DNA of 49,379 nucleotides from Actinomycetota bacterium. Its GTDB lineage: Bacteria > Actinomycetota > Thermoleophilia > Gaiellales > Gaiellaceae. How positions within the stretch are numbered: position 1 is the first letter of the stretch; the number at the start of each line of letters is the position of its first letter. The DNA lies in assembly GCA_005888365.1 (NCBI GenBank), contig VAWZ01000044.1:1994-51372 (forward strand), in the 5' to 3' direction. Both the position numbers and the translations under genes were made by a program. The notes below the pieces were generated by a model, which was not told the DNA's origin, made no database searches, and saw nothing but the letters and a program-made list of their open reading frames with translations. Shown piece by piece: positions 4,793 to 9,830 of this stretch.

Positions 4793-5710
4793 TCAGCGGG
4801 CCACTGCCCGCACTGCGCGCTCGAGCTCGCCGACCGCGAGGGCGCCCTGGAACCGGGCGGAGACGCGGCCACGGCGGTCGACGACGAACGTCCAGGGCTC
4901 CGTCGTCAGGTGCCACTGCTGCATCCAACGGTTGTACCCCTTGGCCGGATCGTTGTCCGTGTAGACCTCGACGTGGATGAAGCGCACTCGGGCGTTCTCG
5001 AAACGACGCGAGACGGCGTCGACCACGTCGACCACAGGGCCACAGGTGCGGCTCGTACAGAACTTGGGCGTCGCGAACGTCACGACGAACGGGGTCTTCG
5101 CGCGCAACGACCCGCCGACGGAGTAGCGCAAAAGCGAGGTGTCTGGCGGAATACGAGTCGTCACCTGCACCGCGTCGCCGCCCGCGCTCGCAAGTGTCGG
5201 CGTCGCCGACGCCGGCGCCCGAACACCGATGCCGGGGACCGGGTCTTCGGAGAGGACGTCGACGTTCCCGACCGCGTGGACAAGTTCGCGACCACCCAGC
5301 GGCTCCGCGAGGAGCCAGTACGTCCCGGGCTTGTTCACCCGGAAGTGGACGACGTAGATATGAGTGACGTCGGCCCTCGCTCCGCCGGGAACGCCGATCG
5401 ACTCGAGCATCGCCGTCGCCTCGAGGAACGGCTTCCCGCCAAGAGCACGGGCGAGCCAGACGTGCGCCCTCGGGCGAATGATCGGACGGGCTTTCGAGTC
5501 GACGACGAGGAACGAGACGCGAACGACTCCCGGAACGTAGTGATCCGTCCCGGGTACCACGGCGACGTCGTCGCCCCCGTCTCGCCAGAGTTGCTCGAGC
5601 GTCTTCCCACCTTCGGGGACGCTTCCCGCAGTCGAAGCGCCCCCGCTCGAGCGGCCGCACGCTGCAAGGGACAGGCACGACACCGAGATCAGTGCCGCAG
5701 CCAGGCGCAT
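4793..5710 (-). CDS. Lipoprotein with C-terminal thioredoxin-like domain (CX4C)
   Basis: A 305-residue exported protein. Residues 1-18 are a lipoprotein signal with lipobox LAAC and Cys18. The middle (about 45-165) is beta-rich and resembles a secreted Ig-like module (FLVVDSKARPI, YVVHFRVNKPGTYWL). From about 195 it is thioredoxin-like, with FCTSRTCGPVVDVVD providing a CX4C pair in place of CXXC and a late WTFVVDRRGRVSARFQG strand. A redox or metallochaperone role outside the membrane is inferred. A TAGACT hexamer 7 nt before the ATG suggests a leaderless transcript, and two CACTCGAGG repeats lie just upstream of the -35 position. It is on the same strand as the HTH-TPR regulator and small peptide, 85 nt after the latter. 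Confidence 0.72.
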   Translation of the reverse strand: MRLAAALISVSCLSLAACGRSSGGASTAGSVPEGGKTLEQLWRDGGDDVAVVPGTDHYVPGVVRVSFLVVDSKARPIIRPRAHVWLARALGGKPFLEATAMLESIGVPGGARADVTHIYVVHFRVNKPGTYWLLAEPLGGRELVHAVGNVDVLSEDPVPGIGVRAPASATPTLASAGGDAVQVTTRIPPDTSLLRYSVGGSLRAKTPFVVTFATPKFCTSRTCGPVVDVVDAVSRRFENARVRFIHVEVYTDNDPAKGYNRWMQQWHLTTEPWTFVVDRRGRVSARFQGALAVGELERAVRAVAR

Positions 5711-5795: not shown

Positions 5796-5900
5796 CTACA
5801 TGAACAGGTGGCCGTCAGGCCAGGAATCGGGGAAGACTCCCCCGAACCAGGCCGCAAACAGCGCCAGGTTGGCGAGTAGCAAAAGCAACCGGAGCTTCAT
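5796..5900 (-). CDS. 34-residue signal-peptide-like small protein downstream of the HTH-TPR regulator
   Basis: A short ORF starting at the ATG at 5900 and ending in TAG at 5798-5796. The sequence AGGAGG lies 6 nt upstream of the ATG, the best ribosome-binding site in the region. The peptide has a basic start (MKLR), a run of Leu/Ala/Phe from about residue 5 to 20 (LLLLLANLALFAAW), then a polar, Pro/Asp-containing tail ending DGHLFM. It starts 15 nt after the regulator stop, so the two are very likely co-transcribed. Size, hydrophobic core and position fit a pro-peptide of an RRNPP-type signalling pair; a single-pass membrane microprotein is the alternative. No homologue is known to me. Confidence 0.65.
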   Translation of the reverse strand: MKLRLLLLLANLALFAAWFGGVFPDSWPDGHLFM

Positions 5901-5915
5901 GCGCGACCTCCTCTC

Positions 5916-7280
5916 TTAGAAGCGGATTTCCTGGAGCGCCTCAGCGGCGTTCCGGTATAGGCGTGCGGCCTCGCCGTCCAATCCACGACGCGCCGCAAGG
6001 TCCCCCAGTGCGACCCACGCCTCCGTCCGGTGACTGATCGACGCCAGCTGCTCGGCAGCCGCGTCAGCCGCCCGGAAGCATTCTTCCGCCTCGTCAAACC
6101 GCCCGCGCTCCATCAACGCTCGTCCCAGTACGAGCTGCGACGGGCAGACTTCGTGCAGGAAGTCCTCCCTACCAACGAGCAGAGCGAGTGCTTTGCGGGC
6201 GTCCTCGTCTGCTTCGTCGTACTCGCCACGGCGCAGGTGCACCGTGGCCAGCCCTCCGAGCGCCTGTGCGGCGTCGGCGGGCGAGTCCACTTCGAGCGCC
6301 CTTGCGAAGGACGCCTTCAGATGCTCGACGGCCTGATCCTCGTCTCCGAGAAGGAGCGTCAGACCCCCGAGCGCGAGCAGGAGCCGGCCGACGTTCTGAT
6401 CGTCGTTCAGCCCCTGATACAGCTCTTTCGCACGCTGCGCGTAGTTCCGCGACAGAACCCAGTGGCCCTGTCTTTGAGCGATGAGCGATGCCTGGAAATA
6501 GGTGTTGGCGATCGCGCGCCGATCCCCGAGATCTTGCGCGAGCTCGAGGGCTCGCTCGACGTCCTCGTGCGCGGCTACGTAGTCCCGCTGGCGCCGGTGG
6601 CAGCGTGAACGCCAGCCGAGGATGTCCGCGCGAAGGAGGTCACATGGCAGACCGGAGCGCTCTGCGAGGACGAGCGCTTCGTCGAAGAGCGCGAGTGCGG
6701 TCCCAATGCTCGAGAGCTTGTACCGGCACACGCCGATCCTGAAGAGGACGTCCGCCCGGTCGACGTCGGAGAAACCCGAGAGCTCCGTCAGCTCACGCGC
6801 GTGCTCGAGCAGCACGAGCGCGTCGCGGACCTCGCCGTGTTGCTGAAGGGCCCACGCCTCGCCCGAGAGCAAGCGCACCTCGAGCGTGGGAGCCTCCGTG
6901 CCCGCGACGGACTTCCGCGCGGACCGGAAGGCCTCGATCGCCTCGAGATACTCATGCCCCTCGGAGAGCGCCTCGCCTCGTGTGAGCAGCGCCTCCGCTT
7001 TCGTTCGCTCTTCGGTAGTGACGCCGACCGAGAGAAACGACGGGTCAACGTTCAGCCGATCGGCGAGCCAGGTCACGGTTGCCTCGGTCGGGCGCGTCTT
7101 CCCGCGCTCGATCTGGCTGATGTACTCCTTCGAGAAGCGCCCGCCTGCGACGTCGGTCTGCGTCAGGCCAGCCGCGATCCGCAGCGCCCGAAGCCGCTCG
7201 CCGAGCTGCTTCCCGAGCGGGCGCGCCTGGGTCCCCTCCGGGGGAGAATCGTGCGTGGGCGTGGTAACGGGCTCGCTCAT
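5916..7280 (-). CDS. XRE helix-turn-helix plus TPR regulator, RRNPP-like
   Basis: A 454-residue cytoplasmic regulator. Residues about 24-82 are an XRE-type HTH (LRALRIAAGLTQTDVAGG, SKEYISQIERGKTRP). From about 95 to the end there is a continuous array of roughly eight TPR-like helical pairs (EALLTRGEALSEGHEYLEAI, AHEDVERALELAQDLGD, GRALMERGRFDEAEECF). This order and length match peptide-binding regulators such as NprR, PlcR and Rgg, known mainly from Firmicutes. It is followed by a 34-codon ORF. Upstream it faces repeated GTCAAG/CTTGAC motifs and a divergent promoter. I am sure of the domains and unsure of a peptide ligand. Other HTH-TPR proteins act without one. Confidence 0.85.
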   Translation of the reverse strand: MSEPVTTPTHDSPPEGTQARPLGKQLGERLRALRIAAGLTQTDVAGGRFSKEYISQIERGKTRPTEATVTWLADRLNVDPSFLSVGVTTEERTKAEALLTRGEALSEGHEYLEAIEAFRSARKSVAGTEAPTLEVRLLSGEAWALQQHGEVRDALVLLEHARELTELSGFSDVDRADVLFRIGVCRYKLSSIGTALALFDEALVLAERSGLPCDLLRADILGWRSRCHRRQRDYVAAHEDVERALELAQDLGDRRAIANTYFQASLIAQRQGHWVLSRNYAQRAKELYQGLNDDQNVGRLLLALGGLTLLLGDEDQAVEHLKASFARALEVDSPADAAQALGGLATVHLRRGEYDEADEDARKALALLVGREDFLHEVCPSQLVLGRALMERGRFDEAEECFRAADAAAEQLASISHRTEAWVALGDLAARRGLDGEAARLYRNAAEALQEIRF

Positions 7281-7352
7281 GCCATCGGAGTGAACCTGGG
7301 ATCAGGACTGGACGCACTCCCCCTCCCGGGGGAGGTGGCACCCGCCTTCCCA

Positions 7353-7397
7353 GTCAAGTTGACGATAGCGGAAATCACTTGACCGAGCTACTTGACT
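7353..7397. promoter_or_regulatory. Cluster of CTTGAC/GTCAAG operator-like motifs
   Basis: GTCAAGTTGAC at 7353-7363 is a perfect 11-bp palindrome (GTCAA-G-TTGAC). CTTGAC recurs at 7378-7383 and 7391-7396, with centres about 25 and 13 nt apart. The last copy overlaps the -35 of the rightward promoter. The cluster lies between the HTH-TPR gene and the small-RNA promoter, so binding there could control both. Assignment to the HTH-TPR protein is inference. Confidence 0.5.
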
Positions 7398-7420
7398 TTT
7401 TTGGACACGACTCCTATAGT
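7392..7420 (+). promoter_or_regulatory. Canonical sigma-70-type promoter TTGACT-N17-TATAGT
   Basis: TTGACT (7392-7397) is separated by exactly 17 nt from TATAGT (7415-7420). This is the closest match to a consensus housekeeping promoter that I see in the window. Transcription would start near 7427 and run right into a region without a coding gene. The -35 overlaps a CTTGAC repeat, so it is probably regulated. Confidence 0.75.
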
Positions 7421-7426
7421 CAGGCC

Positions 7427-7606
7427 CACAACCGCACCGGCCGGACGCCAGGTCGGATGCGAGGGCGCCACCGCCGGATCCGCCGGCGAGCGCAGGAAGA
7501 GCGTGGCTGGGCCGCAGAGCCACGATTCTCCGGCTCGCCGCCCCGGGAAGGGGTCGCCTCGAACGGAGAACGCCCCCGGAGCCGCAGCCGGGGGCGTTCT
7601 GTATTT
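7427..7606 (+). ncRNA. Probable structured small RNA, unclassified
   Basis: About 180 nt lie between a strong promoter and an intrinsic terminator-like hairpin, with no supported reading frame. A 7-bp hairpin pairs CGTGGCT (7502-7508) with AGCCACG (7518-7524), with loop GGGCCGCAG. It is enclosed by an 8-bp helix, 7484-7491 with 7533-7540. The inner strand of that helix can instead pair in a local hairpin (7472-7488), so two folds compete. A small CCCC/GGGG hairpin follows (7541-7553). The terminator loop repeats the 7-mer GCCGCAG of the first hairpin loop. I could not match it to 6S, SRP, tmRNA, 6C or a common riboswitch. Confidence 0.6.
7568..7606 (+). terminator. Intrinsic terminator of the small RNA
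   Basis: GAACGCCCCCGG (7568-7579) pairs perfectly with 7588-7599 around the loop AGCCGCAG, followed by TGTATTT. The T-run is short, as is usual at this GC. It could also stop leftward read-through from the TetR gene. Confidence 0.7.
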
Positions 7607-7761: not shown

Positions 7762-8361
7762 TCACGCAACGCCTGTGAGCCAGCGCTGGCGCTCGGCCTT
7801 GATGGCGGCGAGGTCCTCTGCCGTCAGTGGACCGCCGAGACGGTCGGCGATCGACACGAGCAGGCTCCCCCCGATGAAGATCCAGGCCTCCGCATCGACG
7901 TTGCGGTCGGCCGCGATCGCGCCACTCTCCTGGACGCGTCCGAGACAGCCGGCGAAGAAGTCGTGCACCTCGCGCATGTGTCCACGCACGAAACGGCGGA
8001 TCTCGGGATCCTCGCCCGCCTCTGTGATCGCCTGCATCCACAGGCTCGGGAGCAGCGTCTTCAGATCCCGCATCGCCGACGTGCGCATGCTGCGCCACGC
8101 CTCCGCAGGCCCCAGCTCGTCGATCTTCGCCTCCAGCTTGCAGCGGATGCGACGCCAGGCCTCGTCCAGGCACGCGAAGTAGAGATCGCGCTTCGACGAG
8201 AAGTGGCGGTACAGGATCGGCTCGGAGACACCGGCTTCCCGCGCGATCTCCGCAGTCGTCGCTCCCGCGTAGCTCCCGTCCGAGAAGACGTGGAGCCCAG
8301 CGTCGATGATCGCGGTCCTGCGCTCGGCAGCGGAGAGTCGCGTGGGAGGCGCCTGCGTCAT
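7762..8361 (-). CDS. TetR-family transcriptional regulator
   Basis: A 199-residue protein with an N-terminal TetR HTH (RRTAIIDAGLHVFSDGSY, TTAEIAREAGVSEPILYRHFSSKRDLYF at about 12-60) and a helical ligand-binding domain. The ATG overlaps the MFS stop by 4 nt, so exporter and repressor share one transcript. This is the classic arrangement of a drug-efflux repressor that binds in the divergent promoter. Two matching palindromes are present at 9851-9881. The ligand is unknown. Confidence 0.9.
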   Translation of the reverse strand: MTQAPPTRLSAAERRTAIIDAGLHVFSDGSYAGATTAEIAREAGVSEPILYRHFSSKRDLYFACLDEAWRRIRCKLEAKIDELGPAEAWRSMRTSAMRDLKTLLPSLWMQAITEAGEDPEIRRFVRGHMREVHDFFAGCLGRVQESGAIAADRNVDAEAWIFIGGSLLVSIADRLGGPLTAEDLAAIKAERQRWLTGVA

Positions 8362-9830
8362 GCCGCGAGCTCCGCTGCCTCCCGCTCGGCAGCCTCCTCG
8401 AGCTCGTGGGGACGCACGAGCACGAAGGCGACGATCGCGCCGACGGCCGCGATGACGGCTGCGACCATGAGCGCGCTCTGGAAGCCGTCCATGAAGGCTC
8501 CCTTGAAGGCCGCTTCGGCGGCCGCGCTCAGCGTCGCTCCCGGCTGCGGCTGCACTCCACCAGCCTTGCTCGCCATGATCGCGCCCATGATGGCGATGCC
8601 CATCGAGCCGCCGACCTGACGGAACGCGTTCAACACCGCCGAGCCCACGCCGGCCTTGTCCACGGGGACGCTGCGGGTGGCGGCGGCCGCGCTCGGCGTC
8701 ATCGTCGAAGCCATTCCGATTCCGCCGATGAGCATCGCCGGCAGGAGCTCCCAGTAGGTGGCGTTCTGGCCGAGCCGCGAGAAGTAGACGAGCTGGACCG
8801 CCAGCAGCCCCATCCCCACGGTCATGAAGGCCCGCGACCCGACGCGATCGGTCATACGGCCGGCGATCGGAGCCACGAGAACGATAAGCACCGTCATCGG
8901 TAGGAACGCCGCGCCGGCCTGCACCGCCGAGTACCCGAGGATGTTCTGCATGTACAGGGAGACGAAGAAGAACACCCCGAACATCGCGAGCGCGACGAGG
9001 AGGATGACCGTGTTCGCCCCCGTGTATGTGCGGTTCTTGAAGAGCTCGAGCGGCAGCATCGGCGCCCGCTGGTGGCTCTCGAGATAGACGAAGACGAGCA
9101 ACGCCGCAGCCGCGATGGCGAAGGACCCGACGATGCGCGGAGAGCCCCAGCCGTAGGTGTTCGCCTCGATCAGCCCATACGTCAGCGAGAAGAGACCGAC
9201 GGCCGACGTCGCGAGTCCTGGAATGTCGAGTCGAACGTGGGTCTCGTCACGGGACTCGTCGATGAAGAGGAAGCTGGCGACGATCCCGAGGGCTCCGACG
9301 GGAACGTTCACGAAGAAGATCCAGCTCCACGTGAGGTGCTCGGTGATCAGCCCTCCTGTGAGTGGCCCGATCGCGAGCGCGAGTGCCGAGACGCCGGCCC
9401 AGATCCCGATCGCCGTGCCGCGCTGCCGCGGAGGGAAAGTCGCCGCGATGATCGACAGGGTCGCAGGATTCATGAGGGCGGCCCCAGCGCCCTGCACGAT
9501 GCGCGCAGTGATGAGCATGGAGCCCGAGCTCGCGAGTCCGCACCAGAGCGACGCGAGCGAGAAGATCGCGATTCCGATGACGAAGATCAACCGTCGCCCG
9601 TACGCGTCGGCGACCTTGCCGCCGATGAGCATGAGCGCGGCGAACGTCAGCGCGTAGCCTGTGACGATCCATTCCAGCTCCGACAGCCCGACGCCGAGGT
9701 CGCGCTGAATCGACGGGAGCGCAACATTCACGACGGTGTTGTCGAGCATGATCATGAACAGCCCAAAAGAGACCGCGCCGAGGGTGAACCACTTGCGCGT
9801 CTCAGGTGCGAAGATCTTCGCCCGCATCAT
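8358..9830 (-). CDS. MFS multidrug exporter, DHA2 (EmrB/QacA) type, 14 TM
   Basis: A 490-residue polytopic protein starting with a short cytoplasmic tail. It has motif C-like and motif A-like stretches (LDNTVVNVALPSIQRDL, GKVADAYGRRL) and the DHA2 signature ALMNPATLSIIAATFPPRQRGTA. The hydrophobicity pattern fits 14 helices. Members export drugs or lipids by proton antiport. AGGAGG lies immediately before the first of two ATG codons, so the second ATG (9827) is a slightly better-spaced start. It is co-transcribed with the TetR gene and divergent from an acyl-CoA synthetase. Confidence 0.92.
   Translation of the reverse strand: MMRAKIFAPETRKWFTLGAVSFGLFMIMLDNTVVNVALPSIQRDLGVGLSELEWIVTGYALTFAALMLIGGKVADAYGRRLIFVIGIAIFSLASLWCGLASSGSMLITARIVQGAGAALMNPATLSIIAATFPPRQRGTAIGIWAGVSALALAIGPLTGGLITEHLTWSWIFFVNVPVGALGIVASFLFIDESRDETHVRLDIPGLATSAVGLFSLTYGLIEANTYGWGSPRIVGSFAIAAAALLVFVYLESHQRAPMLPLELFKNRTYTGANTVILLVALAMFGVFFFVSLYMQNILGYSAVQAGAAFLPMTVLIVLVAPIAGRMTDRVGSRAFMTVGMGLLAVQLVYFSRLGQNATYWELLPAMLIGGIGMASTMTPSAAAATRSVPVDKAGVGSAVLNAFRQVGGSMGIAIMGAIMASKAGGVQPQPGATLSAAAEAAFKGAFMDGFQSALMVAAVIAAVGAIVAFVLVRPHELEEAAEREAAELAA

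Follow-up and report, generated by a model that had tools for sequence, protein, structure and literature searches.

A conserved regulator–small ORF pair beside a divergent structured RNA in Actinomycetota looks like an undescribed peptide-sensing switch

The window analyzed here, that is, the whole 49,379-nt stretch of actinobacterial DNA, carries a gene encoding an HTH–TPR regulator whose stop codon is separated by 15 nt from the ATG of a 34-codon ORF, itself preceded by an AGGAGG Shine-Dalgarno (SD) sequence. This is the arrangement described by a previous sequence-only reading, and all its elements were confirmed on the minus strand (Table 1). Pfam assigns residues 25–80 of the regulator to HTH_31 (E 2.1e-14) and covers the remainder of the protein with TPR repeats (TPR_12, E 4.3e-24), while no NCBIfam family matches it at its cut-off. 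The product of the small ORF, 34 aa in length, is MKLRLLLLLANLALFAAWFGGVFPDSWPDGHLFM. Upstream of the regulator, we found two features that are additions to the regulator–peptide pair of that reading, a candidate operator and a divergent structured RNA. The leader of the regulator (window 7281–7340) also contains an inverted repeat made of a C-run and a G-run (CCTCCCCCGGGAGGGGG when read on the minus strand), and similar repeats are present in the leaders of its relatives.

Table 1. Features of the locus, with positions in the window
Feature	Position	Strand	Basis
34-codon candidate propeptide, C-terminal SWPDGHLFM	5796..5900	-	ORF and comparison of relatives
Shine-Dalgarno AGGAGG of small ORF	5907..5912	-	sequence
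HTH–TPR regulator (candidate peptide receptor), 454 aa	5916..7280	-	ORF, Pfam domains, AlphaFold2 pLDDT 93
Third half-site, inverted, GTCAAGT	7353..7359	+	conservation
Double box CTTGAC-N7-CTTGAC, candidate operator (minus-strand reading GTCAAGT-N6-GTCAAGT)	7378..7396	+	conserved
Promoter TTGACT-N17-TATAGT of divergent RNA, -35 within double box	7392..7420	+	conserved
Divergent structured RNA, ends approximate	7426..7606	+	conservation, covariation
RNA hairpin, loop GCCGCAG	7502..7524	+	covariation
3' terminator-like hairpin, loop GCCGCAG	7569..7598	+	covariation

A thioredoxin-like lipoprotein gene downstream and an MFS transporter gene upstream are recurrent neighbors (window 4793–5710 and 7762–9830), and in the window itself a TetR regulator gene lies between them. 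Comparison of the neighborhoods of relatives revealed no conserved peptidase or permease beside the locus, no constant partner gene and no conserved immunity or modification gene. The genome encodes three SBP_bac_5 peptide-binding proteins above the cut-off, in agreement with the presence of an oligopeptide importer, as expected of an RRNPP system.

Scanning genome contigs gave 27 loci, all but a few of which are relatives with 44–82% identity, and the regulator is present in 83 of the 299 genomes of the class that were searched. These genomes belong nearly all to one family (f1), with five from f3, a family of the same order, and three from f7, elsewhere in the class. Among 396 genomes sampled across the phylum, the sole match outside the class is a weak one (L132) that has no small ORF, and the viral contigs searched for relatives of the regulator yielded only one weak HTH match. 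The pairing was counted in 95 distinct loci (f7 and contig-end cases excluded), with a small ORF defined as encoding 25–80 aa with a hydrophobic core, having an SD with at least six matches, and lying at most 60 nt from the regulator stop codon. Such an ORF follows the regulator in 83 of these 95 relatives, which come from two families and share 38–83% identity, versus 1 of 950 dinucleotide shuffles and 0 of 951 ends of other long ORFs. When [DSEN]G was additionally required within the last nine residues, 69 of the 95 relatives still qualified, versus none in either control. In most of the remaining 12 loci the ORF is present, but its SD is weaker, its start is unusual or it lies further from the regulator. 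True absences are limited to the three f7 loci (34–37% identity), L075 and L088, and in L045 the small ORF is reduced to a 15-codon remnant, MKARLILHRSWTDGH. Hence, the small ORF does occur behind the regulator across two families and many genera, as the sequence-only reading had anticipated. Its further expectation, that relatives would not lack the ORF, held for the 83 loci and failed for f7 and a few others, so the pairing is confined to a subfamily of the regulators. Ten close relatives preserve the frame, with none of the stop codons or frameshifts that were looked for, and a pN/pS of 0.385 (at pS 0.55) indicates that the small ORF is under purifying selection, that is, coding constraint.

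The C terminus is the conserved part of the small-ORF product, again as anticipated, and mostly retains an aromatic/Met…(D/S)G motif (tails WPDGH, WSDGH, GFWDGPG, GMSDGGGF, GMHDGGEI, GFFDGH, FSDGRD and GFYDGA). Variants are GFSSGG or GFSTGN in one paralogue clade and GHGGGHMNW in genus g12, and the f3 tails are mostly GFHEW or GFHQW. The motif also varies between regulator clades, and paralogues within one genome differ in their tails, e.g., in genome G293, GFWDGPR (L116) versus GFSSGG (L085), as would insulated receptor–peptide pairs. The products, about 28–68 aa long in relatives, nearly all display a basic start and a hydrophobic core, and these basic N termini predict a C terminus facing outward. 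A-x-A sites after the core are found only in long-tailed members, and most short members have no clear signal-peptidase site. Tandem copies of the motif are a feature of multi-copy pheromone precursors, and five of the products (L046, L048, L049, L050 and L051) contain them (SMFDGGSAFDGG…; in L046, SMFDGGSAFDGGSAFDGGSMFDGGSMFDGH). These copies are unlikely to be an assembly artefact because they occur in separate genomes and differ in number, and such products would look like a precursor giving several copies of one short peptide. Two other arrangements were observed: in L086 (1889–3266), regulator and peptide are naturally fused in a single frame ending in GKLYGFSSGG, and in L112 the regulator is immediately followed by two tandem small ORFs, both with the tail GHFDGR.

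The AlphaFold2 model of the regulator, built on 84 sequences (pLDDT 93.2, pTM 0.83), exhibits stacked pairs of TPR helices behind an HTH. VIA-align superposes the whole TPR domain (347–353 residues) on RapI, NprR and RapJ with a Z score of 28.2, a match of limited specificity since TPR folds are generic and LGN scores above Rap (Z 31.6 over 317 residues). Foldseek retrieved PlcR–PapR7–DNA (E 2.5e-7), and a profile search of PDB sequences returned RapJ, RapH, ComR and PlcR among many other TPR/HTH proteins, these matches spanning the TPR or HTH parts and not the full length. The predicted fold is compatible with an RRNPP receptor and is not proof of one. We also modeled, with AlphaFold2, an in-frame read-through fusion (regulator, stop codon read as Gly, five codons, peptide), in which the tail has a pLDDT below 50 and is not placed relative to the TPR groove.

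The candidate operator, GTCAAGT-N6-GTCAAGTGATTT in the sense of the regulator, is common to sixty loci, and in most of these a third, inverted half-site lies further on; part of the conservation of the first half-site could stem from the -35 of the RNA promoter, because this half-site contains its complement. The exact double box occurs once in the genome of the window, where a version with one mismatch also occurs once, and usually once per f1 genome, at the regulator locus. A broad regulon was rejected, since double boxes with up to two mismatches (47 forward and 44 reverse) are as frequent as in the control (50 and 38). The f7 homologues retain a similar double box, though they have no small ORF.

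The TTGACT-N17-TATAGT motif is the sole promoter-like site in the 2.1 kb between window positions 5700 and 7800, where 0.1 would be expected. Beyond it, upstream of the regulator and in the opposite direction, lies a conserved sequence of ~180 nt that was aligned in 51 loci. Its two hairpins covary, with 91% of cells paired and 120 cells changed on both sides versus 40 in shuffles, and none of 500 shuffles scored as high, while slid versions of the hairpins score far lower. The invariance of GCCGCAG in these alignments is partly by construction, because two copies per locus were demanded for entry; in a scan made before this selection, nearly every main-clade locus had the 7-mer once or twice. 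No family of Rfam 15 matches the RNA at gathering score (the best sub-threshold one is CrfA, with 20.9 bits versus 38 needed), which rules out a known Rfam family. A covariance model detects a single copy in the genome of the window, with no credible paralogue there, and one copy each in 81 of 129 genomes of the order. Within the family, the RNA is present in 65 of 75 genomes with the regulator versus 1 of 7 without it. Owing to its short U tract, the 3' hairpin is absent from the list of a strict terminator scan, and the ends of the RNA are therefore inferred. In f3, the divergent sequence at the equivalent place is also conserved but is a different one, and it contains a strong hairpin; in loci L065–L069 this hairpin, upstream of the regulator, is GCGCGTCGGAGTGG-ACTGGAGC-CCCACTCCGACGCGC, and it follows a TTGAC promoter accompanied by related boxes.

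Genome G138 (L134, 4000–4700) has lost the regulator and the peptide and has kept an RNA remnant together with the downstream lipoprotein gene. All three half-sites, the -10 and one of the RNA loops have decayed there, which, in this single case, is what would be seen if the box were maintained by the regulator.

We judged RRNPP membership by the five criteria of the main survey of such systems (PMC10075063). The candidate propeptide is 34 aa long (10–100 aa asked for), the receptor has 454 aa (250–500 aa) and contains TPRs, according to both Pfam TPR_12 and the fold match, and the two genes are adjacent, 15 nt apart, in an arrangement kept in 83 of 95 relatives. As for the fifth, a Sec signal (SignalP), the basic start and hydrophobic core occur nearly throughout and A-x-A only in long-tailed members. 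The locus would work like an RRNPP system and agrees with four of the five published criteria, all but the Sec signal, and the conserved tandem, the conserved tail and the TPR fold match to Rap and NprR support the RRNPP-type layout proposed by the sequence-only reading. As in PlcR–PapR and NprR–NprX, an HTH–TPR receptor is adjacent to a short ORF with a hydrophobic start and a variable, motif-bearing C terminus, and the predicted TPR domain superposes on that of NprR (Z 28.2). In contrast to these systems, the locus is actinobacterial and restricted to one order, its regulator has profile matches to validated receptors in the TPR or HTH parts only, the peptide tail conserves (D/S)G, some precursors repeat the motif in tandem, and a structured RNA is divergently encoded. 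Rap–Phr is similar in its TPR domain (~350 residues aligned with RapI and RapJ, Z 28.2) and in the small regulator peptide encoded downstream, which is exported in Rap–Phr and would be exported here. Rap proteins are not known to carry a DNA-binding HTH, unlike our regulator, which has an HTH and a conserved box. PrgX–PrgQ of pCF10, in which an RRNPP receptor and a short hydrophobic peptide are combined with RNA-level control, likewise unites receptor, peptide and RNA. However, it governs plasmid conjugation and its antisense RNA overlaps the peptide transcript, whereas here the RNA is clear of the peptide. In Arbitrium, from SPbeta-group phages, AimR activates aimX, a nearby short transcript that is its main target (PMC6536502, PMC9232636), and here also a candidate peptide receptor lies beside a short transcript, its proposed target. 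Arbitrium is nevertheless a phage lysis–lysogeny switch in which aimX is not divergent from aimR, while our locus is chromosomal, in fixed synteny, and among viral contigs has a single weak match, to the HTH.

We consider that the locus is probably a peptide-sensing switch of an RRNPP-like kind, acting directly on its own operon and on the small RNA. This is supported by the conserved tandem (83 of 95 relatives, close to 0 in controls), the purifying selection acting on the small ORF, its C-terminal motif with five tandem-copy precursors, the basic N terminus, hydrophobic core and long-tailed A-x-A sites, and the different tails of paralogues in one genome. The fold aligned with RapI, NprR and RapJ over the TPR domain and the PlcR–PapR7–DNA match, the double box found exactly once in the genome, RNA covariation above every shuffle with one copy in each of 81 genomes, the joint loss or decay of regulator, peptide, box and promoter in G138, and the three SBP_bac_5 proteins also argue for it. 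Against it stand the short members with no clear signal-peptidase site, the unplaced tail of the fusion model (pLDDT below 50), the generic nature of TPR folds (LGN above Rap), the f7 homologues with regulator and box but no small ORF, and the failure of the RNA to match a strict terminator. In such a switch, the small ORF would be a propeptide, exported through its basic start and hydrophobic segment, and from its C terminus a short peptide with an aromatic/Met-x-(D/S)-G motif would be freed outside the cell. This peptide would come back via an oligopeptide permease, occupy the TPR groove of the regulator and alter its occupancy of the GTCAAGT boxes, which overlap the -35 of the RNA promoter and closely precede the operon of the regulator itself. 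Judging from this overlap, the bound regulator may repress the RNA, whose GCCGCAG loops could act on target RNAs or on a protein. The fuller picture of a peptide-gated riboregulator, i.e., a chromosomal, family-wide actinobacterial RRNPP-like system whose receptor would have hardly any targets besides its own operon and a single dedicated small RNA, hitherto unknown, that carries the response, is one to which we give a little under an even chance.

The genetic evidence would be identical if the peptide served the regulator as a ligand within a single cell, be it as internal cofactor or as export–import timer, with no signal between cells, and many members do resemble plain membrane-spanning peptides with no clear cleavage site. 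We find this unlikely, since the basic N termini predict an outward C terminus, and the tandem copies and A-x-A sites of some members fit export and processing. More doubtful still is a small membrane protein whose outer tail has its own job, the co-operonic regulator sensing something else: its hydrophobic core, basic start and outward tail, and the regulator homologues with no small ORF, would suit it, but the tail motif varies among paralogues of one genome and among regulator clades, regulator and peptide vanish together in G138, and there is no constant partner gene. A toxin–antitoxin or bacteriocin-like unit, in which the divergent RNA and an XRE-type regulator would restrain a toxic hydrophobic peptide, is very improbable despite the co-occurrence of small hydrophobic peptide, HTH protein and RNA, because the RNA is divergent rather than antisense to the small ORF, conservation in the peptide lies in its polar tail, and no immunity or modification gene is a conserved neighbor.

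Small-molecule signals are regarded as the rule in this phylum, and the locus and its relatives look like a peptide-sensing switch that has so far gone undescribed. Actinobacterial signals are typically small molecules, HTH–TPR peptide sensing has been described from Firmicutes and their mobile elements, and the main RRNPP survey, with its five criteria, covers only Firmicutes and viruses (PMC10075063). A review of quorum sensing in Actinobacteria mentions neither oligopeptides nor PlcR nor Rgg (PMC4748050), and our search of the open-licence literature found no report of an actinobacterial RRNPP system, in line with the earlier suggestion that such a pair would be undescribed in this phylum. 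The locus provides concrete candidate peptides that can be synthesized, SWPDGH and GFWDGPG among them, a structured RNA family that is new and associated with a putative switch and, in G138, a natural deletion linking the candidate operator to the regulator. In a family represented here almost only by metagenome-assembled genomes, such a conserved pair would shift the Firmicutes boundary of peptide sensing.
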